From contig CANLVO010000001.1 of NCBI GenBank assembly GCA_947494645.1, positions 2,046,001 to 2,110,000 of the forward strand: a stretch of 64,000 nt of DNA, given 5' to 3'. Position 1 is the stretch's first letter, and each line of letters begins with the position of its first letter. The DNA is from an uncultured Litoreibacter sp. GTDB lineage: Bacteria; Pseudomonadota; Alphaproteobacteria; Rhodobacterales; Rhodobacteraceae. Shown here one piece after another: positions 19,144-26,359 of this stretch. A model generated the notes under the pieces. The model did no database searches. It had not been told where the DNA came from and worked only from the letters and a program-made list of their open reading frames with translations. Position numbers and translations under genes: made by a program.

Positions 19144-19179
19144 GCGTCCGCATGTCCCCCCACATGCGGGCGCTTTTTT
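19144..19179 (+). terminator. Rho-independent terminator
   Basis: A 12-bp stem GCGTCCGCATGT / ACATGCGGGCGC (19144-19173, one G-U pair) with a CCCCC-type loop, followed by six T (19174-19179). It ends the small gene at 18946. Its T tract overlaps the stop codon of the convergent sulfotransferase gene. Confidence 0.9.
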
Positions 19180-20833
19180 ATTCCGCGCCGTAGCGCTCCC
19201 AAAACGGGGCCATCTCCGCCTCGTGCCGCTTCCATGCCCCAACGGACGAGCTGTAAATTGGCTGGCGCACTTGTGTGCTTGAGAGCGTGTCGACCTTTCG
19301 CGCCGTCTCATAGAAAGACAGGCAGGCATCCTGCCAATCCAACCCCGCATTGGCGACCAAAGCCCGCGTTTGTGCCTCAGGCTCTGCGATCAGCGCCTCA
19401 TAGGATTGCTCTGAAAAGGCATCTGGCAGCTTATCGCGCCAGCTTGCGATCTGGCTCTCGAACAGCTGCATAAACTGCGCGATATCGCCCAGGTTCGCGG
19501 CGTAGCGATGCGTGCCAAAGGCGAACAGGTTCTTGTAGAGGGAAAGCGCATTGTCACCCGGATCCCGGCGCACCACGATGATCTTGGCCTGCGGCAGCGC
19601 ATGGCGGATGAAGCCGATCAGGCTGTAGCTGCTGATCGACTTGTCGGTTACAAACCGTGCGCCCGGAAACCGCGCGCGCAGCGTTTCAAGATACTGCGCC
19701 CCTGCGGTGCGCAACCCTTCGGACAAGGACGCCGCATCCGCGTGTTCTTGTGCCAACACGTCACCGATCAGCTTGCCCAAGACCGATAGCTCGCCCGCGC
19801 CTTCGCACTCTGAATGGGATGCGAGGATCTGCTCGATAAGCGTAGTGCCCGAACGCGGCATCCCGGTGACAAAGATCGGGGTGGGGCCATCGCTTTGTGT
19901 CGTCTCAGGCACCTCCGCCTCGGCCAGTATCTGCCACTTGGCCTGCCAGGCTTCGGCCTGCGCGGCATCTGCTGCCGCGTCATAGGGATGGGTTTTGGCC
20001 AGTTGGGCATTGGCCAGCTCAAGGTAGCGAAACATCTCCGTATGTTGACCGGTGTCTTCCATCGCCTTGGCCAGCGCATGGCCCAGATATATCCGGCCCG
20101 GATCGGTCTTGGGGGTCCGCTTCAACACGTCCTCCATCTGGGAGATCATCGGGTCATCCGCCTTCATCTTCGCGATGGATGCGTAGGCGTGGTAGTGTGC
20201 GCCCTTCTTTGGAGCAGCCTTGATCGCTTCCTTCGCCGCCTCAAGCGCCTCGTCGGTGCGGCCAATATCGCGCAGGAGCCCTGCCTTGCGGGACAAGGCG
20301 AAGTCATAGCTTGGGGCCAGCTTCAAAGCGGCATCAAATGCGGCAAGGGCCGCGTCCGGATCCCCTAAAGCCGCTTGCGCCATGCCGAGTTCGACTTGCG
20401 CCCGCGGCGATTTGAGCCCCTTGTCCAGCGCCTCTGCGATATGGGTCTGAGCGTCCTTTGGCTGATTGCGCCGCGCCGCGATGAGGCCTTTGTAGAACGC
20501 CACCTCCGCGAACCGGTCCAATCCTGCGCCACCGCGCGCCAGAAGCTTTGCGAGGTTGTCCACATTGGGATGACGCGACGCCATATCGAGATAGGCGAGC
20601 CAAATCGCGGGCTCCTGAGGCTTGAGCTTCAACGCAGCCTCAAAATGTCCGGCGGCCTCCGAGATCTGGCGCAAGCCGGCGGCGACCCGGCCCATATTGA
20701 ACTGAACCTCGGCAAGGTTCGGGTTGGTCTTTAATATCCGCGCGTAGCCTTTTTGCGCCTCGGTGAGCCGTCCGGACTGTTGCGCCGCCAGCGCCTTCGC
20801 GTAGGTCTTTTTGATCATCTCTGGGGTCATCAT
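19178..20833 (-). CDS. TPR-repeat sulfotransferase family protein
   Basis: A 551-residue two-part protein. Residues 1 to about 260 are tetratricopeptide-type helical repeats (for example YARILKTNPNLAEVQFNMG and FEAALKLKPQEPAIWLAYLD). Residues about 290-520 are a sulfotransferase domain with the 5'-phosphosulfate loop FVTGMPRSGTTLIEQIL and the 3'-phosphate region IIVVRRDPGDNALSLY. Such enzymes transfer sulfate from PAPS to an acceptor; the acceptor is unknown. The PAPS-forming sulfate activation enzyme is encoded about 3.5 kb to the right, though not in one operon. The stop codon falls in the T tract of the convergent terminator. Confidence 0.88.
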   Translation of the reverse strand: MMTPEMIKKTYAKALAAQQSGRLTEAQKGYARILKTNPNLAEVQFNMGRVAAGLRQISEAAGHFEAALKLKPQEPAIWLAYLDMASRHPNVDNLAKLLARGGAGLDRFAEVAFYKGLIAARRNQPKDAQTHIAEALDKGLKSPRAQVELGMAQAALGDPDAALAAFDAALKLAPSYDFALSRKAGLLRDIGRTDEALEAAKEAIKAAPKKGAHYHAYASIAKMKADDPMISQMEDVLKRTPKTDPGRIYLGHALAKAMEDTGQHTEMFRYLELANAQLAKTHPYDAAADAAQAEAWQAKWQILAEAEVPETTQSDGPTPIFVTGMPRSGTTLIEQILASHSECEGAGELSVLGKLIGDVLAQEHADAASLSEGLRTAGAQYLETLRARFPGARFVTDKSISSYSLIGFIRHALPQAKIIVVRRDPGDNALSLYKNLFAFGTHRYAANLGDIAQFMQLFESQIASWRDKLPDAFSEQSYEALIAEPEAQTRALVANAGLDWQDACLSFYETARKVDTLSSTQVRQPIYSSSVGAWKRHEAEMAPFWERYGAE

Positions 20834-21137
20834 AATTGTCGCCTATCATGGCAAATGACCCTGAGCCAGCGCCCTGTCAGGCCGAATTTGATTCGCAGGC
20901 CTTTCAGACCGAGCGCTCCCACCCGCCTGACCCTAGGGCAGCAATTGTGGCGAAACTCTTTCTGCGCCAAGAAACAATCCACGTTTAGACGGTCCATTGG
21001 TGACAACGCATCGTCTATTGACCTCATTTCATTGACTTTTAACCGGTAATCGCCCCCATTGTTGGGCACACACACTCAAAACATACTGCATAACGGTGGG
21101 GACCGTGCAGGCTTGCAAGACCTTAAAAGGACAGCGC
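20834..21137 (+). other. 304-base gap between divergent genes
   Basis: Contains the outward promoters of the sulfotransferase gene (minus) and the Hint-domain gene (plus). TTGAC-type hexamers occur at 21018 and 21032, but no well-spaced -10 follows either. I see no RNA gene or additional ORF. Confidence 0.4.
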
Positions 21138-21914
21138 ATGACCTATTCCCGCACCGTGCGACGCAGATGGCCTGTTGGCCATCGGGCTGACGCTGCGACC
21201 TCGTCCCCGCCCCTGCGCCACTCCACCCCTACGATTGCATGCGACGTCAGCTGGTTGAATGCGGACGGAACGGTTGGCACCTCCAACATCATGGCCCCCG
21301 CTCTACCGATGATCGAAGCCGCTTGCGGCAATGTCGCGCGCGGGACGCTGATTTCGACCAGTGACGGCCCGATAGCAGTAGAGGACCTGACCCCCGGCAC
21401 CCGTATCCTGACCAGCGAATATGGCCCCCTGCCGCTGCAATGGGTGGGCTCCACCTTGCATCTGCCAAATGACGCGCCGGGGCAGGAAGGCAACAAGCTT
21501 TTTCGGGTGACCGCCGACGCCTTCGGTCTGGCCAAACCCTCCGCAGACCTGATGCTGGCACCGCGCTCCCATATTCTGATGCGCCATGCGGCCTGTCGCG
21601 AGCTGTTCGGGGTTGATCTGGCATTTGCCCCGATCCGGGCCTTTGAAGACGGGCTGCAGGTTGTGGCAATCACGCCAATCTCGGGCATTCAGCTCTACAA
21701 CCTGGCCTTTGACCGGCAGGCGACGATCATCGCCAACGGGGTCGAGCTGGAAAGCTTCCACCCCGGTCCTTTCGCTGAGACGCTTCTGGACAAAGACCTG
21801 CTCGGTAGCTTGCTACGGCTGTTCCCACAGGCGCGGGAGATGGCGGATTTCGGGCCGCAACTTACTCAGCGCCTGACTTCCTTCGAGGTCCGTACCCTGC
21901 GAAACGGGGCCTGA
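21138..21914 (+). CDS. Hint-domain (Hedgehog/intein-type) protein
   Basis: A 258-residue protein. After a 60-residue polar N-terminal part comes a Hint_2-type domain: ARGTLISTSDGPIAVEDLTP, PGTRILTSEYGPLPLQWVGS, then LMLAPRSHILMRH and FDRQATIIANGVELESFHPG. Roseobacters carry many such proteins, often secreted, whose role is poorly known. In typical members the domain opens CFxxGT; here the aligned position is Asn65 (NVARGT), with a Cys two residues earlier, so the self-processing nucleophile may be missing. AAAGGA stands 7 bases before the ATG at 21138. Confidence 0.82.
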   Translation: MTYSRTVRRRWPVGHRADAATSSPPLRHSTPTIACDVSWLNADGTVGTSNIMAPALPMIEAACGNVARGTLISTSDGPIAVEDLTPGTRILTSEYGPLPLQWVGSTLHLPNDAPGQEGNKLFRVTADAFGLAKPSADLMLAPRSHILMRHAACRELFGVDLAFAPIRAFEDGLQVVAITPISGIQLYNLAFDRQATIIANGVELESFHPGPFAETLLDKDLLGSLLRLFPQAREMADFGPQLTQRLTSFEVRTLRNGA

Positions 21915-24101: not shown

Positions 24102-24240
24102 CGTTTCGCCTCGTATCTGGTTACTCTTCTCTCCCAGAACTTTATCAAAGGTCTGTAGGCGCCGAAAGTTAGCCAACAGCTTCGAGGGAAGTGGCACAGA
24201 GCGCACATTTTTCGCTCTCACTACAAGTTTGTTCTTGGCT

Positions 24241-24284
24241 GAACATAGATTTCACTCTATGCGTTCATTCGTGAACACATAGAG
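24241..24284. promoter_or_regulatory. candidate operator: nested inverted repeats before the wHTH-Sat-CysC gene
   Basis: Outer arms CTCTATG (24255-24261) and CATAGAG (24278-24284) and inner arms GTTCA (24263-24267) and TGAAC (24272-24276) form a 30-bp palindrome with one internal mismatch pair. A third related half-site, GAACATAGA, is at 24241-24249. The palindrome ends 5 bases before the start codon at 24290, so a bound protein would block translation start or a promoter here, and an RNA hairpin could mask the start. A possible promoter is TTGGCT (24235) with TATGCG (24258) 17 bases on. Binding by the downstream wHTH domain is inference. Confidence 0.7.
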
Positions 24285-24289
24285 AATCC

Positions 24290-26359
24290 ATGCAGCCCAC
24301 CAATGCCAATCAAGAAGAGGAAGACCTGCTCTTCCGGCTCTTGCGCCAGCTCGATCTGGCGTCAGACGCGTCGCAACGTGCGACTGCGGCGGCTTTGGGC
24401 ATCTCGCTCGGACGGCTCAATGGGCTGCTCAAGATGGCTGCGGCCGCCAAATTCATCAAGATCACCGAACGCGCAGGCACGGATAGACGCAAGCGCTTTG
24501 CCTACTCCCTCACTCCGCGCGGTGCGTCGGAAAAGAACCGACTGACAACTGCCTTTCTGACCCGCAAATTTGCGGAATATGACGCGCTTCATGCCGAATT
24601 AACCGGCACCAATACCGGACTTACCCCTTTCAGTGACAGGACCAAACTGATGCAAAACAACCTCGCCCCTATCCCGGAGCTTTTTGTCTCCTTCGACAGT
24701 GCGCAGAAAATGAAGGCGGAGGCGGCTGAACTGACCTCCCACGACCTGACGCCGCGCCAGATCTGCGACCTCGAGCTGCTGATGAACGGCGGCTTCAACC
24801 CGCTGAAAGGCTTCCTGACCGAGGAAGACTATAACAGTGTCGTCGACACAATGCGTCTGAGCACCGGCGAGCTGTGGCCGATACCGATCACGCTGGACGT
24901 GTCTGAGGATTTCGCGAATTCAGTCGAACTGGGCCAAGACATTGCACTGCGCGACCAAGAGGGTGTGATCCTCGGCACCATGACCGTGACCGACCGCTGG
25001 GAGCCCAACAAATCGCACGAGGCCGAGAAGGTTTTTGGCGCCGACGATCCGGCCCACCCGGCGGTGAATTATCTGCACAATCAAGCCGGAAAGATCTATC
25101 TGGGCGGGCCTGTCACCGGCATCCAACAACCCGTGCATTATGATTTTCGCGGCCGGCGTGACACGCCAAATGAACTGCGCGCTTACTTCCGCAAATTGGG
25201 CTGGCGCAAGGTCGTGGCCTTCCAGACCCGCAACCCCTTGCATCGCGCACATCAGGAACTGACCTTCCGTGCGGCCAAGGAAGCGCAGGCTAACCTGCTG
25301 ATCCACCCTGTGGTGGGCCTGACCAAGCCGGGCGATATTGACCACTTTACCCGCGTGCGCTGCTACGAGGCAGTGCTGGATCAATACCCGGCCTCGACCA
25401 CCTCCATGTCCTTGTTGAACCTCGCCATGCGCATGGCGGGCCCGCGCGAGGCGGTATGGCACGGTTTGATCCGCAAGAACCACGGCTGCACACATTTCAT
25501 CGTTGGCCGCGACCATGCGGGCCCAGGCCAGAACTCCGCAGGTGACGACTTCTACGGACCCTATGACGCACAAGACCTGTTTCGCGAGCATCAAGAGGAA
25601 ATGGGCATCGAAATGGTCGACTTTAAGCACATGGTCTATGTGCAGGACCGCGCCCAATATGAGCCCGCCGACGAGATCAAGGACCGCGACAACGTCACCA
25701 TTCTGAACATCTCGGGTACTGAGCTGCGTCGCCGTCTGAGCGAAGGGCTGGAGATCCCCGAATGGTTCTCCTTCCCGCAAGTGGTTACCGAACTGCGCAA
25801 ATCCCGCCCCCCCCGGGCAAACCAAGGCTTTACCGTCTTTTTCACCGGCTTCTCCGGTTCCGGCAAATCGACCATTGCCAACGCGTTAATGGTCAAACTG
25901 ATGGAGATGGGCGGACGCCCGGTTACGCTGCTGGATGGCGACATCGTGCGTAAGAACCTTTCTTCTGAACTCGGCTTCAGCAAAGAGCACCGCGACCTGA
26001 ACATCCGTCGCATTGGCTATGTCGCCTCAGAGATCACCAAGAACCGCGGCATCGCGATTTGTGCGCCTATCGCGCCCTATGCGGCAACGCGCCGCGCTGT
26101 GCGCGAAGACATTGAAGGCTTTGGCGCCTTCATCGAAGTCCATGTCGCAACCTCTATTGAGGAATGCGAACGCCGCGACCGCAAGGGGCTCTACAAGCTG
26201 GCCCGCGAAGGGAAAATCAAGGAATTCACTGGTATTTCAGACCCTTACGATGTGCCGGAGCATGCCGAGCTGGTCATCGATACCGAGAATGTGGATGTCG
26301 ACAACTGCGCCCATCAGGTGATCCTGAAGCTCGAAAGCATGGGATTGATTGCAGCCTGA
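24290..26359 (+). CDS. winged-helix (MarR/EPS type) fused to bifunctional ATP sulfurylase/APS kinase
   Basis: One 689-residue frame. Residues about 8-106 are a winged-helix domain of the EPS-associated MarR type (ATAAALGISLGRLNGLLK, then FAYSLTPRGASEKNRLTTAF). Residues 121 to about 505 are ATP sulfurylase, with QTRNPLHRAH at 312-321 and GRDHAGPG at 407-414. Residues about 512-685 are APS kinase, with P-loop GFSGSGKST at 520-528 and LDGDIVR. The enzyme activates sulfate to PAPS. The usual Sat-CysC length is about 570, exactly what is left from Met121 (ATG 24650), which has its own CAGGA 8 bases upstream; so a shorter internal product is also possible. An operator-like palindrome sits just upstream. 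Domain calls are firm; regulatory function is inferred. Confidence 0.92.
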   Translation: MQPTNANQEEEDLLFRLLRQLDLASDASQRATAAALGISLGRLNGLLKMAAAAKFIKITERAGTDRRKRFAYSLTPRGASEKNRLTTAFLTRKFAEYDALHAELTGTNTGLTPFSDRTKLMQNNLAPIPELFVSFDSAQKMKAEAAELTSHDLTPRQICDLELLMNGGFNPLKGFLTEEDYNSVVDTMRLSTGELWPIPITLDVSEDFANSVELGQDIALRDQEGVILGTMTVTDRWEPNKSHEAEKVFGADDPAHPAVNYLHNQAGKIYLGGPVTGIQQPVHYDFRGRRDTPNELRAYFRKLGWRKVVAFQTRNPLHRAHQELTFRAAKEAQANLLIHPVVGLTKPGDIDHFTRVRCYEAVLDQYPASTTSMSLLNLAMRMAGPREAVWHGLIRKNHGCTHFIVGRDHAGPGQNSAGDDFYGPYDAQDLFREHQEEMGIEMVDFKHMVYVQDRAQYEPADEIKDRDNVTILNISGTELRRRLSEGLEIPEWFSFPQVVTELRKSRPPRANQGFTVFFTGFSGSGKSTIANALMVKLMEMGGRPVTLLDGDIVRKNLSSELGFSKEHRDLNIRRIGYVASEITKNRGIAICAPIAPYAATRRAVREDIEGFGAFIEVHVATSIEECERRDRKGLYKLAREGKIKEFTGISDPYDVPEHAELVIDTENVDVDNCAHQVILKLESMGLIAA

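Follow-up and report, generated by a model that had tools for sequence, protein, structure and literature searches.

Does a single bacterial gene join a DNA-binding regulator to the enzyme that activates sulfate, and if it does, what would such a protein do? The locus that raises the question lies in the window, by which we mean the whole 64 000-nucleotide stretch of uncultured Litoreibacter sp. DNA that was analysed. A first-pass annotation of the window had read there a winged-helix domain of the EPS-associated MarR type that runs, over a short linker, into a full-length bifunctional ATP sulfurylase/APS kinase (Sat-CysC). If true, sulfate activation, the step with which sulfur assimilation and sulfation begin, would have a regulator-enzyme. 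The one-frame arrangement held up: the MarR/EPS-type domain (residues 10–105) and the linker (residues 106–120) are followed by the enzyme with no stop between them. The features of the locus are these.

24231–24244, no strand: second (distal) operator-like palindrome, GTTCTTGGCTGAAC
24263–24276, no strand: main operator-like palindrome, GTTCATTCGTGAAC, within a larger inverted repeat at 24255–24284
24290–26359, plus strand: full-length MarR-Sat-CysC, 689 aa, 77 kDa, open from ATG to TGA
24317–24604, plus strand: MarR/EPS-type winged-helix domain, residues 10–105 (TIGR04176 below cut-off; structure model)
24605–24649, plus strand: linker, residues 106–120, carrying the candidate internal Shine-Dalgarno; mostly low model confidence
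24638–24641, plus strand: candidate internal Shine-Dalgarno AGGA, made of the Arg117 codon AGG and the first base of the next codon
24650–26359, plus strand: from the predicted internal start ATG (Met121), a free Sat-CysC of 569 aa and 64 kDa; the same start as in unfused orthologues
24674–25126, plus strand: PUA-like domain of ATP sulfurylase, residues 129–279 (Pfam PUA_2)
25157–25801, plus strand: ATP sulfurylase catalytic domain, residues 290–504 (Pfam ATP-sulfurylase)
25823–26281, plus strand: APS kinase domain, residues 512–664, P-loop GFSGSGKST intact (Pfam APS_kinase)

The enzyme part is full length, as had been claimed. All three Pfam domains were found, and the NCBIfam model NF004040 (bifunctional sulfate adenylyltransferase/adenylylsulfate kinase) matches residues 119–688 with 1032.4 bits against a curated cut-off of 669 bits, covering model positions 4–571 of 572. 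The NF004040 and PRK05537 enzymes match the fused protein only from residue 119, and annotation by that family name would mask both the switch and the predicted second start. The sulfurylase and kinase motifs are intact: QTRNPLHRAH, GRDHAGPG and the P-loop G-SGSGKST are invariant in a 39-row alignment. Among proteins of known structure, the fungal ATP sulfurylases 1i2d and 1m8p and the bifunctional SAT/APS kinase 2gks come closest in sequence; among the matches listed, no PDB sequence match covers the MarR part. One paper relates the fungal ATP sulfurylase to the Rhodobacterales enzyme and gives CysN/CysD as absent from Rhodobacterales (PMC2275785). CysN was found above its cut-off in none of 21 same-genus genomes (weaker matches below the cut-off in all 21), and because of this and of the reported lack of CysN/CysD, the fused Sat-CysC may be the sole entry to sulfate activation. 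A CysH-like reductase, below the APS-reductase cut-off, is present in 19 of the 21.

For the regulatory part, the model TIGR04176 (MarR_EPS) aligns at residues 10–105 with 77.0 bits on the whole protein and 81.7 bits on the N-terminal piece, which misses its curated cut-off of 88 bits; all 37 of the aligned family members match it. The TIGR04176 regulators are of the same domain family, but would be expected as separate genes beside exopolysaccharide genes, while the domain in the window is fused to Sat-CysC and lies under the cut-off, and the fused domains have a branch of their own. A structure model of the N-terminal piece has a winged helix and a long C-terminal helix, with block pLDDT of 87–93 over residues 11–100 but 75 at residues 61–70. 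It gave 27 PDB matches at E ≤ 0.001, to MarR proteins, with moderate TM-scores of 0.40–0.54. As modelled, the N-terminal domain has the MarR superfamily fold, and by analogy with that fold the MarR part would dimerise. The full-length structure model, with a mean pLDDT of 49, was too poor to be of use.

The fusion is real and no assembly error, because the same stop-free fusion is found in at least 90 of 394 sampled Rhodobacteraceae genomes. These match a profile of the MarR part and junction to its end with at least 202 bits (own genome included; G052 and G400 are cut by contig ends), and none of the 90 full matches has a stop in the matched junction stretch, where the search reads through stops and counts them. 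A missed stop or an assembly fault is thereby ruled out across genus and family. Relatives do not always keep two genes with a stop between them, and the architecture that the first-pass annotation proposed to look for in other Rhodobacteraceae turned out to be widespread and not particular to the genome of the window. Matches below 202 bits are standalone MarR genes (the best with 109 bits) and one diverged fusion in G315 with 98 bits. Within the genus 13 of 21 genomes are fused (11 complete and two cut by contig ends), seven carry a Sat-CysC that has no MarR match closer than 1.5 kb, and one (G009) was counted as neither. The order sample yielded 47 fused genomes among 121, all 121 belonging to Rhodobacteraceae, and the class sample three among 387, again all Rhodobacteraceae; no fusion was found outside that family in the 387-genome class sample, where the best match from other families was a standalone MarR with 104 bits. 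The best 80 named fused records come from Phaeobacter, Leisingera, Shimia, Octadecabacter, Roseovarius, Tateyamaria, Pelagimonas and uncultured Litoreibacter, among others. Of these 80, 19 share an identical 240-nt stretch with the set of 102 fused loci used below and 61 do not; the 102-locus set leaves out L111, which is fused but was removed by the start filter. One contig titled Nocardioides marinus (L206) carries the fused gene and shares sequence with a locus from the family (L063), so the title is probably wrong.

The upstream palindrome to which the annotation had drawn attention also exists, with 13-nt arms at 24255–24267 and 24272–24284 around a 4-nt loop. Its core, GTTC-N6-GAAC, stands within 250 nt upstream of the MarR domain in 101 of the 102 fused loci, and in the one remaining locus (L056) a contig end cuts the sequence short. 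There is hardly any variation among the ten core bases; the usual form is GTTCAnnnnTGAAC, with A as the fifth base in 100 of 101 loci, and the median distance from the end of the palindrome to the first in-frame start codon is 19 nt. GTTCAN4TGAAC was found in 78 of the best 80 named fused loci and upstream of none of 46 unfused orthologues, among which the looser form occurs once; the 46 include one locus with a broken MarR part (L123) but not the fused L111. At sequence level, then, the claim that the enzyme is tied to control of its own transcription was borne out. A second palindrome is present in 27 of the 102 fused loci, the window included, at a commonest spacing of 32 nt (14 of 27), or about three helix turns. 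CTTT and T/AT blocks are conserved before the palindrome in fused loci and could be −35 and −10 elements, which would put the operator over the transcription start and so suggests repression; a generic promoter scan gave no sigma-70-like promoter on the plus strand.

The same palindrome (GTTCAnnnnTGAAC, GTTCAN4TGAAC) lies within 300 nt upstream of seven of 22 standalone EPS-type MarR genes (L216–L235, L023 and L024), and may be the operator for part of that family. The exact palindrome occurs in two places in the own genome, as does a reversed control; the second place is between a MarR-like gene and an oppositely directed gene (names read from the translations). Seventeen other same-genus genomes have 0–7 copies each against 0–4 for the control, with 1–7 in the ten fused and 0–7 in the seven unfused. 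A wider regulon found no support, though further targets beyond the own promoter may exist; that the exact palindrome is no commoner than the reversed control across the own genome counts against self-regulation through this site. A random-window rate of 3.8% was set aside, since the operators themselves raise it.

We consider it quite probable that two proteins are translated from the gene and that its full-length product is a sulfate-activation enzyme which regulates itself, comparable to BirA or NadR. The 77-kDa protein would pair through its MarR/EPS winged helix, and the paired helices would bind GTTCAnnnnTGAAC, a putative operator just before the gene's own start codon; from the position of that site, binding would most likely repress the own promoter. 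Ribosomes would start again at Met121 by means of the AGGA in the linker, giving a 64-kDa Sat-CysC that lacks the DNA-binding domain, as the enzyme of unfused relatives does. The cell would then hold free enzyme and a share that bears the switch, probably in mixed oligomers, and transcription would depend on how much enzyme there is and possibly on its bound substrate or product, APS or PAPS. The reading brings together four things established from sequence: the fusion, the operator-like site, the fact that this site goes with the domain, and an internal start that is conserved. The traits of a regulator-enzyme are present as predicted features: one chain with a DNA-binding domain and an enzyme, and an operator-like site in its own promoter region.

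Known systems resemble parts of this scheme, and BirA and NadR show that an enzyme can be coupled to regulation in this way. NadR has an HTH domain, an HxGH-type nucleotidylyltransferase and a P-loop kinase in one chain, and is regulated by its pathway's own nucleotide; its HTH is of another family, however, it serves NAD and not sulfate metabolism, and it acts on other genes. The BirA-type biotin ligase/repressors also consist of a biosynthetic enzyme with an N-terminal DNA-binding domain, and to our knowledge no internal start is known in BirA, while MarR-Sat-CysC has a predicted one. Like Sat-CysC, BirA has relatives without the DNA-binding domain, the alpha- and betaproteobacterial ones having lost it according to PMC5343134. 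BirA differs in that its enzyme and pathway are unrelated, and the conserved target of MarR-Sat-CysC is predicted to be its own promoter. AerR of a purple bacterium has long and short isoforms that differ at the N-terminus and act differently, but AerR is a photoreceptor whose isoforms differ by 41 residues, and no enzyme that occurs once with a DNA-binding domain and once lacking it (PMC6199135). Judged by titles and abstract openings, none of the papers listed in the literature searches describes a MarR–ATP sulfurylase fusion or another regulator-enzyme for sulfate activation. The regulator-enzyme is an existing type, and the MarR-Sat-CysC version with its second start appears to be new.

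Under plain dosage control, a narrower form of the same explanation, the full-length protein would always repress its own promoter and would sense no ligand. This we put a little short of an even chance. It agrees with the finding that the exact site occurs in the own genome only at this promoter and one other place, and with the statement in PMC5343134 that negative autoregulation is common for bacterial transcription factors. Dosage control needs no enzyme in the same chain, however, and joining the two is what one would expect if the occupancy of the enzyme matters. The fullest form of the self-regulating enzyme is more tentative still, and we would sooner doubt it than rely on it: mixed oligomers would turn APS/PAPS occupancy into operator binding, with a gain set by the ratio of the two starts, in a system that would have come from an exopolysaccharide regulator and been dropped again and again along with its operator. 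The switch is missing from many relatives and is therefore dispensable.

The annotation had spoken of a one-protein regulatory enzyme. The fusion stands, but the description is incomplete, since the linker holds a conserved internal start and the gene most likely yields two proteins, of 77 and 64 kDa. The evidence lies mainly in one codon. Arg117 is encoded by AGG in 100 of the 102 fused loci, although AGG makes up only 50 of 5338 Arg codons (0.94%) elsewhere in the same genes; this column has a codon bias of 6.6 bits, and none of the other 580 of 581 scored columns exceeds 1.4 bits. The family loci are related, so that these counts are of non-independent events; members of the genus differ from one another by a median dS of some 1.0 to 1.5, and a rare AGG would therefore not be kept by inheritance alone. 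An alternative is that only the full-length protein is made, and that a rare codon where the domain ends holds up the ribosome, giving the MarR part time to fold first. Ribosome pausing just past a domain can help folding, AGG is both rare and just past a domain, and the pairing energy at the internal site is unexceptional. We nevertheless regard this as unlikely. In 100 of 102 loci AGG is followed by an A, though the residue there varies (Thr, Ser, Asn, Ile, Met), and four codons past Arg117 all 102 loci have a start codon (ATG 97, GTG 4, TTG 1). The best 80 named loci behave alike, with AGG in 80, A as the next base in 79, and ATG in 72 and GTG in 8 at the start position, again a start codon in every one. 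There are two exceptions at Arg117: L104 reads CGGA (CGG, with GGA kept), and L114 has GAGGA shifted by a few bases, before ATG. Unfused orthologues begin at the position equivalent to Met121, and the Shine-Dalgarno/start pair survives in L123, where the MarR frame is broken. The codons at Arg117 and Met121 were read from stop-to-stop frames, while the count of junction stops comes from the profile search.

Other signs of initiation are weaker. In 95 of 101 loci the internal site has a stronger pairing energy than the site of the first start (medians −4.0 versus −2.2 kcal/mol), but 29% of random Sat-CysC positions pair as well as the internal Shine-Dalgarno, and GTG at Met121 is weak evidence alone because GTG makes up 40% of Val codons in these genes. 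Since energy and start codon alone prove little, the case is built on the conservation of AGG. Were the separate products all that the cell needed, nothing would be lost by a stop in the linker, yet all 90 full matches have an open junction; were the fusion all that it needed, the Shine-Dalgarno and the start codon would wear away, yet both are maintained. Because the open junction, the selection on the MarR part and the Shine-Dalgarno/start pair are all kept, both products probably matter. Read in this way, the linker offers an unusually clean case of selection for an in-frame internal start, one that the choice of codons is enough to reveal.

In a tree of MarR domains one branch, with support of 97/97, splits the 22 standalone domains from 103 fused ones (L114 included), which fits a single fusion event without proving it; the tree program flagged the small number of columns and the length of the branches. 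A tree of Sat-CysC (99 fused and 24 unfused, leaving out six short rows) has the two forms interleaved, with 16 parsimony changes, at least three of them forced by well-supported branches, and both forms are present within several genera. In the window the neighbours are an Lrp-type regulator, trxB, GNAT, hsp20 and purE. Among same-genus loci trxB is upstream in 10 of 11 complete fused and six of seven unfused loci, and the downstream neighbour, where found, is hsp20 or purE in fused and unfused alike; judged by these neighbours, the two forms mostly share one chromosomal place within the genus. Natural relatives with and without the switch, mostly in the same place, make its purpose directly testable. 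Among the 46 unfused loci, with flanks of about 1 to 2 kb, trxB was found in 28 and was missing from 18. The simplest reading is repeated loss of the MarR part together with its operator; spread of the fused allele by recombination may be another source of the interleaving. One locus looks like such a loss caught midway: in L123 (genome G177, listed as 80% complete) the MarR frame is disrupted and the palindrome has disappeared, while AGGACAAAACTGATG is retained and the Sat-CysC frame of 592 aa is open. L114, the diverged fusion in G315, has a strongly changed MarR part, two palindromes and the shifted internal Shine-Dalgarno.

Genome G805 has an unfused Sat-CysC (L274) and a second copy (L273, 277–4489) behind a separate MarR_EPS gene. 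That gene encodes 107 aa, scores 155 bits (over the cut-off), has its own stop, and is preceded by GTTCAN4TGAAC, in the form GTTCAACTGTGAAC, about 100 nt upstream of the domain; beside these genes are a divergent RfaH/NusG-like gene and a UDP-N-acetylglucosamine dehydratase-like one. This is a two-gene version in a polysaccharide-type cluster and may show how the fusion began, as a model of the origin and not as a direct ancestor, because its MarR is only 44% identical to that of the window. None of the 22 other standalone MarR loci has a Sat-CysC beside it in the stretches examined, and nine of them have a NusG-like neighbour. A link between sulfate activation and sulfated exopolysaccharide is plausible.

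Could the join be a passive read-through of the old two-gene layout, with the enzyme in use and the MarR part no working regulator? The two-gene layout of G805, the decayed MarR part of L123, the commonness of unfused forms (7 of 21 in the genus) and the faster evolution of the MarR part all lean that way: over same-genus pairs median dN/dS is 0.127 for the MarR part (48 of 55 pairs), 0.27 for the linker, 0.045 for Sat and 0.024 for CysC. We find it very improbable all the same, since a ratio of 0.127 still means purifying selection, by which the MarR part is evidently kept as protein, since palindrome and domain have stayed together in 101 of 102 fused loci while GTTCAN4TGAAC is missing from 46 of 46 unfused ones, and since the junction frame stays open in the 90 full matches. 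Instead of a protein operator, the palindrome could also be a hairpin of the leader RNA (riboswitch or attenuator), and in the window it can fold into a 4-nt loop on a stem of up to 13 positions. We give this hardly any credence: the ten core bases are nearly invariant and not covarying, no Rfam family was found at the leader (the only listed match is a sub-threshold snoRNA at 24700–24761), and the same core precedes seven of 22 standalone MarR relatives, its presence tracking the MarR domain. The self-regulating enzyme with two products is our preferred reading.

Two further genes of the window lie to the left of the locus. At 19178–20833 on the minus strand, TPR repeats are fused to a sulfotransferase domain (PF13469). 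The annotation had linked this gene to the fusion, a link that the comparison did not support: a homologue was found in two of the best 80 named loci (flanks up to 5 kb) and in two of 98 compared loci, whereas trxB is within the available flank in 95 of those 98 (91 fused, seven unfused), and a sulfotransferase operon was ruled unsupported. At 21096–21914 on the plus strand a Hint-domain protein (PF13403) adjoins the Lrp-type regulator, and a homologue of it occurs near 43 of the 98 compared loci.
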